DNA from: Oscillospiraceae bacterium
GTDB taxonomy: Bacteria; Bacillota; Clostridia; Oscillospirales; Oscillospiraceae
Direction: 5' to 3'
NCBI GenBank assembly: GCA_022846075.1
Contig: AP025582.1
Span: forward strand, 496,001 to 560,000
DNA length: 64,000 bases
The stretch's first letter is position 1. Each line of letters starts with the position of its first letter. Shown piece after piece: positions 3,598 to 50,156 of the stretch. Below the pieces are notes generated by a model, which was not told the DNA's origin, did not search any database, and worked only from the letters and a program-made list of their open reading frames with translations. The translations under genes were made by a program, and so were the position numbers.

Positions 3598-3642
3598 AAT
3601 TGGGACGGATATCCGAGAGGGGTATTCGTCCCAATTTGTTTT
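3598..3642 (+). terminator. prfB terminator
   Basis: A 10-bp stem (3598-3607 with 3627-3636), a 19-nt loop and a T-rich tail. Confidence 0.75.
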
Positions 3643-3990
3643 TCACCTTTTGAAAGGTGGGGAAATCCTGGGGGGAGGTCTTTTCCAGAAAAGACCTCCC
3701 CCCAGACCCCCCAGAAAAGCACTCGGGGGAGAGAGTTCCGACTCTCTCTCCCCCGAGCCCCTCTCTCAACGGCCAGCCAAGGGGGCCGAGGCCCCCTTGG
3801 CTGGATTCATCCCCCGGGGCTGTCCACAAGAGGGTGGGAAAACCCCAGCCCCTTACTCCGTAACGGGTCCGGGGTTCGGTAGCTCTTAGGCTTCCCCTGG
3901 GATCTAGTGGCCCTTAGCGATAGCTTTAGGGCCACTTGATGCAAGCGTAGTCGTTGAAGCTGTCTGCGAAGCAGACTGATGAGGGGAACC
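3643..3990 (+). repeat. Multi-hairpin intergenic repeat, family 1 copy A
   Basis: A gene-free stretch filled with perfect hairpins. Stem 1 is 18 bp with a 2-nt loop (3668-3685 with 3688-3705). Stem 2 covers 3722-3736 with 3743-3757. Stem 3 is 15 bp (3773-3787 with 3790-3804). A conserved GTGGGAAAACCCC (3834-3846) and GGGGTTCGGTAG (3871-3882) follow. Beyond about 3895 two further small hairpins appear: a TGGCCCT stem at about 3908-3937 and a GTCTGC/GCAGAC stem near 3961-3976. The first part is homologous to 49497-49780. No coding sequence is supportable here. Confidence 0.8.
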
Positions 3991-49462: not shown

Positions 49463-49496
49463 ATTTGTTCTGGGGGCGGATGGGCCTACCTCCGGG

Positions 49497-49780
49497 AGGT
49501 GGGGGAGCCGTGGGGGGCTATTCTTTCTGGAAAGAATAGCCCCCCACACCCCCCAAGAAAGCACCAGGGGGAGAGTTTCGACTCAACAGCTTCGCTGCAT
49601 TAGCTGGCCCTAAGCTCGTGCCTCGCTAAGGGCCAACAAATTTCCCCCTGGACCCCCTCTCAACGACCAAAGGAGAGGCACCTGCGGGTGCCCCTCCTTT
49701 GGAAACCTCCCCGGGCTCTTCACAAGAACGTGGGAAAACCCCGTGGCCGCACTTTGTGGCGGCCACGGGGTTCGATAGGA
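49497..49780 (+). repeat. Multi-hairpin intergenic repeat, family 1 copy B
   Basis: This has the same plan as 3656-3890. Stem 1 is again exactly 18 bp with a 2-nt loop (49510-49527 with 49530-49547). ACCCCCCAAGAAAGCAC follows. A second stem (CCAGGGGGA about 49563-49571 with TTTCCCCCTGG about 49641-49651) has a nested TGGCCCT module in its loop. Stem 3 is 49667-49682 with 49687-49702, one mismatch. Then come GTGGGAAAACCCC and a GGCCGC/GCGGCC stem ending GGGGTTCGATAG. Stem sequences differ from copy A but pair equally well. The whole 49463-50156 gap holds no supportable gene. Confidence 0.8.
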
Positions 49781-49908
49781 GTTCGGGCGGCTGATAGCCG
49801 CCCCTACGTGGAAAGTACAGGTCATAGGCAGTACATGATCCGTGACGCAAAAAGCCTGGGCATGTGAGGTACCACGTATTTGTAGGGGCGGATATTATCC
49901 GCCCGAAC
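49781..49908. mobile_element. MITE-like element with 27-bp terminal inverted repeats
   Basis: A 128-bp segment bounded by 27-bp inverted repeats (49781-49807 and 49882-49908), each itself a small palindrome of the GTTCGGGCGG...CCGCCCCTAC type, with a few differences. There is no coding capacity. GTAGGGGCGG-type palindromes are widespread in bacterial genomes and often act as non-autonomous repeats. Confidence 0.6.
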
Positions 49909-50045: not shown

Positions 50046-50110
50046 AGACTTTTCTTTGGGGGTCTGGGGTGGTGCTTCTTTTCCTCGGGAAAAGAAACGT
50101 CCCCCAGATT
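50046..50110 (-). repeat. Inverted, degenerate partial copy of family 1
   Basis: TTTGGGGGTCTGGGG, then TTCTTTTCC/GGAAAAGAA and CCCCCAGATTT mirror the stem 1 end of family 1 in reverse orientation. The outer stem is imperfect. The stretch 49909-50045 before it shows nothing clear. Confidence 0.5.
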
Positions 50111-50156
50111 TACGCACGTCCCGATGTGCAATCAGGAAACAGTTAAACGGAATCCG

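Follow-up and report, generated by a model that had tools for sequence, protein, structure and literature searches.

A dispersed bacterial repeat with arm-tracking linkers and a predicted chain of minus-strand DNA triplexes

Two hairpin-rich stretches in a 64-kb window of an Oscillospiraceae genome (the window being the whole stretch of DNA that was analysed, 64,000 nt) are best read as copies of a non-coding mobile DNA repeat that would fold, on its minus strand, as a chain of intrastrand triplexes; for this reading as a whole we estimate a probability of roughly 60%. The three-way covariation in its unit C is held with more confidence than that, and strand, molecule and function with less. 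Comparison of copies shows hairpin arms that compensate each other's changes, linkers specific to their arms, covariation between a loop and a linker, lineage-specific insertion and a place behind stop codons; we infer that the triplexes form, that minus-strand DNA is the selected form and that the fold serves the element.

The original prediction had placed the two copies at 3656-3890 and 49497-49780, where both are present. Copy 1 spans about 3644-3879 and copy 2 about 49486-49785, with a right end near 50129, and the full unit reaches beyond 3656-3890: comparison of sites with relatives gives inserts of 596-972 nt. The genome, a single contig of 3,230,334 bases, carries 34 copies in all, since 35 nhmmer rows exceed 50 bits and two of these are the halves of copy 2. 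On the plus strand the order is A, a short hairpin; B, a long hairpin, with its linker; C and D, each with its linker; E, which lacks a tracking linker; and then variable modules (Table 1). The C loop reads TTTCGA or TTCCGA and the end of the C linker AACGACC or AACGGCC. In other genera the B-C-D order is kept with most arm bases changed. Hairpin B is the 18-bp stem with a 2-nt loop that had been described for both copies (3668-3685 and 3688-3705, 100% complementary, in copy 1; 49510-49527 and 49530-49547 in copy 2), and it differs between them at positions 1, 9, 10, 11, 13 and 14, each change being compensated, just as predicted. Both regions fold much more stably than their shuffles, with z -8.2 for copy 1 and -7.7 for copy 2. 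An inverted hairpin pair B'-A' often closes the right end of copies, and at some loci cores lie tail to tail in pairs. Behind E, two further modules occur as a side feature, either GTAGGGGCGGATATTATCCGCCCG inverted pairs or CTTCCCC..GATGAGGGGAAC....GTTCCCCTCATCCGTCAGCCC..CTTCCCC (49781-49908 and many copies, namely L003, L009, L011, L012, L013, L015, L020 and L021).

Table 1. Features of the two repeat copies in the window, with the basis of each assignment.
Feature	Position	Strand	Basis
Terminator-like hairpin with T-run, upstream release-factor gene	3598..3643	+	sequence, fold; element begins directly behind
Copy 1 module A, short hairpin	3644..3659	+	sequence; equal position in other copies
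Copy 1 hairpin B, 18-nt arms	3668..3705	-	fold; 34 copies
Copy 1 B linker, proposed third strand ACCCCCCAGAAAAG, parallel complement of TGGGGGG..TCTTTTC	3706..3719	-	arm tracking
Copy 1 hairpin C, loop TTCCGACT	3722..3757	-	fold, alignment
Copy 1 C-loop bases CCG, pseudoknot side one	3738..3740	-	Y-R covariation
Copy 1 C linker, proposed third strand CCCCTCTCTC	3758..3767	-	arm tracking, controls, class I motif scan
Copy 1 linker bases CGG, pseudoknot side two	3770..3772	-	Y-R covariation
Copy 1 hairpin D, 15-nt arms	3773..3804	-	fold
Copy 1 D linker, possible third strand	3805..3815	-	weak, z 4.3 vs 3.2
Copy 1 hairpin E, no tracking linker	3842..3875	+	fold, alignment; control z 0.5
Copy 2 module A	49488..49500	+	sequence
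Copy 2 hairpin B	49510..49547	-	fold
Copy 2 B linker ACCCCCCAAGAAAG	49548..49561	-	arm tracking, as copy 1
Copy 2 hairpin C, 3' arm split by nested insert	49564..49651	-	sequence; nhmmer match broken there
Copy 2 C linker ACCCCCTCTC	49652..49661	-	arm tracking, as copy 1
Copy 2 hairpin D	49667..49702	-	fold
Copy 2 D linker AAACCTCCCC	49703..49712	-	weak, as copy 1
Copy 2 hairpin E	49738..49771	+	fold
Copy 2 right end, inverted hairpin B' and linker	50049..50107	-	nhmmer match 50125-50049 minus
Copy 2 right end, inverted short hairpin A'	50112..50129	-	sequence

The linkers had been thought to stay constant while the arms change, a claim that did not hold up, as they covary with the arms: ACCCCCCAGAAAAG stands behind TGGGGGG..TCTTTTC and ACCCCCCAAGAAAG behind TGGGGGG..TTCTTTC, and in unit C CCCCTCTCTC follows an arm with AGAGAG and CCCCCTCTC an arm with AGAG. 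The C linker is the parallel complement of the 5' arm, that is, the mirror image of the 3' arm, and both vary together. This was quantified in a first set of 99 cores (94 used for C, 95 for B, 92 for D) and in a later set of 73 cores that were absent from the first, came partly from genera already sampled and were found with the same core regular expression. For 77 distinct arm-linker pairs of unit C the parallel-complement score is 559 against 447 (sd 9.4) when pairs are re-dealt, a z of 11.8, and the antiparallel-complement control gives 2.0; z values here come from shuffles, which can overstate significance as the copies are related. When the shuffling is confined to strata, z is 3.0 for the genome itself and 7.2 both for congeners and for other genera (antiparallel 1.2, 1.8 and 0.3), and position controls yield 11.1 for the 16 nt behind the hairpin, 0.1 for the 16 nt before it and -0.2 for nt 21-36 behind it, with 0.5 for hairpin E against its own 3' flank. 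The later set repeats the pattern for C (z 8.2 vs 2.4 antiparallel, 42 arms) and for B (12.3 vs 5.0, 36 arms). For B in the first set (78 distinct arms) z is 13.3 against 5.0, and by strata (genome itself, congeners, other genera) it is 1.8, 3.7 and 12.9 against 2.9, 3.6 and 3.3, so that B beats the antiparallel control only between genera and its case rests on the comparison among them. By sequence comparison, arm-specific linkers are firm in C, apparent between genera in B and weak in D, where tracking (57 arms, z 4.3 vs 3.2 antiparallel) is not established.

Unit C contains a further covarying element. Within YCG/CGR, the loop's third base varies in step with the linker R, and the resulting 3-bp pseudoknot is complementary in 169 of 172 cores: 96 of 99 in the first set (T/A 82, C/G 14, C/A 2, T/G 1; Fisher p 5e-14) and 73 of 73 in the later one (T/A 68, C/G 5). 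Because the core regular expression requires TTYCG and AACGR, the CG of the pseudoknot is conserved by construction and the informative bases are Y and R. The two C/A exceptions are L014, which carries a nested insert, and L126, which is probably not a core. In the core alignment of 49 sequences, the C stem and the pseudoknot together have 94.4% of their cells paired compared with 81.1% in shuffles, which bears out the earlier view that the stems truly compensate, and their covariation score is 0.514 compared with 0.265 in shuffles and at most 0.298 in slid versions. The number of further pair types, 21, shows no excess over shuffles (23.1).

In arm-linker alignments anchored on G only, the bases facing each other give a third-strand code. 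Arm G in unit C faces C at 327 of 333 positions in the first set and at 256 of 263 in the later set; arm A faces T 100, A 28 and C 1 times in the first set, where shuffled pairing would put C opposite A at about 15 of 75, and T 31, A 21, C 1 and G 1 times in the later one. Arm C in this unit faces C 5, A 4 and T 1 times in the first set vs A at 12 of 13 positions in the later one, and T opposite C-G is a tolerated triplet. In D, arm A faces T 42, A 11, C 10 and G 4 times, so 14 of its 67 A positions have C or G opposite. On the minus strand the C code becomes G at G-C pairs and either A or T at A-T pairs, which matches the antiparallel purine motif as set out in PMC4666352; on the plus strand the same code would demand C+.G-C runs and many A opposite A-T. 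The intrastrand triplex motif class outlined in that source consists of three consecutive blocks on the same strand that fit a triplex code, with a stem of 6-15 nt (PMC4666352). A strict scan for class I only returned one match in the 64-kb window, at 3726-3767 on the minus strand, which is copy 1 unit C (stem 9, no mismatch), and none in 20 shuffles (stems 8 or 9); copy 2 unit C is broken by its insert.

The mismatches within the stems are asymmetric as well. With symmetric pairing, in which G.T and A.C are scored alike, distinct hairpins read on the plus strand contain 86 A.C cells vs 15 G.T cells, or 54 vs 15 mismatch contexts (p 3e-6). The later set has 11 vs 4 contexts and 17 vs 8 cells, which brings the minus-strand G.T-type contexts of both sets to 65 vs 19. 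Hairpin D in other genera has 4 A.C cells and 3 G.T cells. An RNAalifold table on the 35-copy alignment shows G.U and A.C cells more even; symmetric pairing was preferred because RNAalifold is biased towards G.U and that alignment puts arms that differ in length out of register. Since A.C on the plus strand is G.T on the minus strand, the code and the mismatches both point to the minus strand, although mutation bias rather than selection could be the source of the mismatch asymmetry.

These counts bear directly on the idea that the repeat acts as a plus-strand RNA in the 3' UTR of the upstream gene, where it might stabilise the transcript, terminate it or mark it for processing; its loops would be UNCG-like, and its C-rich linker would build a triple helix of the pyrimidine motif. 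The sense orientation close behind stop codons, the strong RNA folding and the loops TTTCGA/TTCCGA and CTGCGG, readable as UNCG type, would all suit such an RNA, which we nevertheless consider unlikely: the mismatches are A.C and not G.U, with the same direction in the later set, the third strand would need C+.G-C runs, A lies opposite A at 28 of the 129 A positions of unit C in the first set and at 21 of the 54 in the later one, the D and E loops also occur reverse-complemented, and Rfam contains no match above threshold. The original prediction had offered a structured RNA among its options, and of this the structured repeat stands; the plus-strand RNA does not agree with 86 A.C against 15 G.U cells, counts that led us to abandon a plain RNA reading. 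The prediction's remark that it recognised no named family in the repeat agrees with the Rfam searches, which at gathering score over the 64-kb window returned two tRNAs only and at E up to 1 over 14 loci a tRNA as the sole match above threshold; the best sub-threshold match on the element is the ylbH leader RF00516 (L106, 37 bits vs 50, E 2e-4). Searches of an open-access literature library found no description of this element. The mismatch bias alone would also fit G.U pairs in an outward transcript of minus-strand sense, which would be antisense to the last part of the upstream gene. Such an RNA would leave the C code unexplained, since purine-motif triple helices are reported not to form in RNA (PMC4666352), and we hold it to be very improbable; on the same report the minus strand is taken to act as DNA.

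Another possibility is that no structural selection is involved, and that recombination spreads the copies while palindrome repair, meaning template switching inside hairpins, rewrites both arms and so mimics covariation. The stems do occur as few allele-like variants in this genome, and judged by eye in the alignment some hairpin tips look as if they flip: E loops are reverse-complemented in L004, L036, L041 and L056 (ACTTCGT/ACGAAGT) and D loops in L024, L047 and L056 (CTGCGG/CCGCAG). Rewriting of hairpins at the DNA level, which had also been proposed, therefore seems real for D and E. However, template switching yields inverted or direct copies and would not be expected to produce mirror-image linkers, and arm-specific mirror linkers recur together with the Y-R pseudoknot across many genera, so that this explanation is already disfavoured and appears improbable.

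The earlier suggestion to search relatives with a covariance model was rewarded with many further copies across genera of the order. A first model, built from 35 aligned copies of this genome and its congeners, matches 14 of 16 genomes of the genus (E <=1e-6), with zero matches in G002 and G004 and one in G010, and in a family sample it matches 45 of 250 genomes and 26 of 106 genera. A second model of the C-D core, built from the 49 sequences whose cores had been chosen by the TTYCG/AACGR regular expression, finds 21 of 394 genomes and 17 of 169 genera, in several families, in an order sample, and in a phylum sample of 398 the genome studied here is the sole match. A search of genome contigs with the core DNA pattern gave 88 stretches, with Flavonifractor plautii ATCC 29863, other Flavonifractor, Pseudoflavonifractor, Intestinimonas and further Oscillospiraceae among the named carriers. 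One of the 88 lies in the gammaproteobacterial Aliidiomarina sp. B3213 (L228, 2060-2108) and is probably a chance match. Searches of phages and of plasmids returned no core match; among viral contigs the core pattern occurs once, in an IMG/VR contig (L298, 4966-5005).

That the repeat is mobile had been put forward as one option, and comparison with two relatives supports it: a core is present in 0 of 27 compared sites (of 31 matches from 22 joined flanks), 19 of the 27 aligning on both flanks. A model search over 30 loci of this comparison gave two partial matches of 18-20 bits at one locus. At four clean sites this genome has 704, 661, 853 and 972 nt where the congener G010 has 15, 53, 53 and 76, respectively; at the TauE gene site G010 has other sequence of similar length. 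This genome has a core behind the release-factor gene, and a pattern search of 520 nt found none in the 14 congeners examined; of the 15 others, G005 was left out as its match is a paralogue. A plain hairpin behind this gene also occurs in congeners that lack the element. The B'-A' pair at many right ends may be taken for terminal inverted repeats, with relatives too diverged for exact ends. The elements are non-coding insertions specific to lineages, about 600-970 bp long and with no gene of their own seen, and they lie for the most part directly behind stop codons.

Sixteen of 22 left-intact copies follow an ORF of at least 200 aa on the same strand, with the stop -2 to 63 nt from the element. 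Pfam backs 13 of 18 upstream ORFs tested, one of them below cut-off, and the genes include those for IleRS, ProRS, AspRS, RF2, UvrC, RecG and RNase J; in other genera 6 of 10 hand-picked ORFs (of 41 listed) match Pfam, again one below cut-off. An IleRS gene precedes a core in two genera, in this genome at 34054 (L007) and in L098 (G217), and in G010 none does; this may be either a common hot spot or chance.

The copies are unevenly spread over the chromosome. With dnaA at base 398 the origin is probably near base 0. The middle 38% of the map, from 1.14 to 2.38 Mb, contains none of the 34 copies (p 7e-8). An exact-pattern search allowing up to one mismatch places all 24 matches outside this interval, and at least two weak model matches, of 46 and 44 bits, lie inside it. 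Twenty-eight of 34 copies are oriented with the presumed replication fork (p 2e-4, uncorrected for gene strand bias). This layout, together with the tail-to-tail pairs, could speak for an intergenic DNA element that serves the host in the manner of BIMEs, by supercoil relief or as an origin-near mark of chromosome layout. The empty orthologous sites in two relatives and the three of 16 congeners with zero or one match count against a needed role, and the fork orientation weakens as support without correction for gene strand bias. A host role in chromosome layout may exist; as the main explanation we find it improbable. Two candidate movers were rejected: Y1 transposases do not fit the copy number (0 PF01797 in this genome, one in 8 of 16 congeners), and neither do reverse transcriptases, of which G010, with its single element match, has five and G007, G009, G011 and G015, each with 15-23 element matches, have none.

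The mobile-repeat reading suggests the following mechanism. With the minus strand single-stranded, the linkers would act as third strands, each aligned with its own hairpin, in C and D through the antiparallel purine motif (G.G-C, A or T opposite A-T) and in B through a T-rich pyrimidine motif or a mixture, and the 3-bp pseudoknot would close the middle unit by joining its loop to the apical end of the third strand. The fold would serve the element and not the neighbouring gene, by recognition or polymerase arrest at a single-stranded step of movement, and new copies would land behind genes, where insertion may do little harm. A movement step with a free minus strand would explain both the strand bias and the upkeep of the third strands. 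The more specific proposal, that evolution keeps a triplex chain with one pseudoknot-locked unit and that a predicted enzyme reads this fold to place copies behind stop codons, is put forward tentatively, as a possibility we would not yet favour.

The nearest known system is the BoxC/PIT/TMECO repeat of E. coli, and the present element would be a distinct variant of the same kind. TMECO is described as one class II triplex of 37 nt whose sequence hardly varies, shown by NMR and CD in vitro, which blocks DNA polymerase in vitro and for which no effect was found in vivo; the repeat is dispersed and intergenic, sometimes in inverted pairs, in E. coli and other Proteobacteria, and origin-proximal in K-12 and not in other strains (PMC4666352, Holder et al. 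2015). The two repeats share dispersal, intergenic location, inverted pairs and one strand capable of a purine-motif triplex (predicted here), and the avoidance of mid-map by the present copies resembles the origin-proximal clustering in K-12. In contrast, TMECO as described there has no orientation bias and lies more often upstream of ORFs, whereas the present repeat lies behind stop codons, has several consecutive units, with class I for C and D and a pyrimidine-type or mixed B (minus strand), and combines varying arms with following linkers and a pseudoknot that closes C. The TMECO consensus CCCTCNCCC N3-6 GGGNGAGGG N3 GGGNGAGGG was found at 0 of 347 loci.

Other systems resemble the repeat in part. 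REP/BIME sequences are dispersed palindromic extragenic repeats, often near gene ends and associated with RAYT (Y1) transposases; the present unit is far larger and composite, and this genome contains no Y1 transposase match. Streptococcus BOX elements and Bacillus bcr repeats are, like the present repeat, modular, non-coding, mobile and able to fold, and we know of no third-strand design in them. Integron attC sites also stand behind a stop codon, fold on the bottom strand (a fold predicted here) and keep structure while sequence varies; attC sites form cassette arrays, in contrast to the dispersed single copies seen here, and to our knowledge no triplex has been described for them. What appears new here is the series of units, the third strands that follow variable arms, the pseudoknot closure and the spread over an order.

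Whether triplex DNA forms in living cells, and whether it matters there, is a long-standing question. Since the TMECO stems are nearly fixed, comparison could not reveal selection on its third strand. In the present repeat, linkers keep step with variable arms across many genera, the covarying pseudoknot is a second witness, and such covariation of arm, linker and pseudoknot is the type of evidence that established RNA helices. The finding hints that evolution can maintain triple-stranded DNA, and it supplies testable oligonucleotides, a rule for genome searches and, in Flavonifractor plautii ATCC 29863, a carrier that has a name and a type strain.

The hairpins of the repeat themselves look like insertion targets. 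A nested insert of about 59 nt (about 49585-49643), absent from the original prediction, lies in the 3' arm of copy 2 hairpin C; it is an instance of a module, some 60 nt long and itself a hairpin (AACAGCTTCGCTGC..CTAAGGGCC, with a reverse-complement relative CTAGTGGCCCTTAGCG..GGGCCACTTG), that occurs at 49585-49643 and behind copy 1 (3899-3960). A second nested module, GAGAGACCCG..CCGGGCGGCCTA.., breaks hairpin B or C in L014, L019, L022, L023 and L061.
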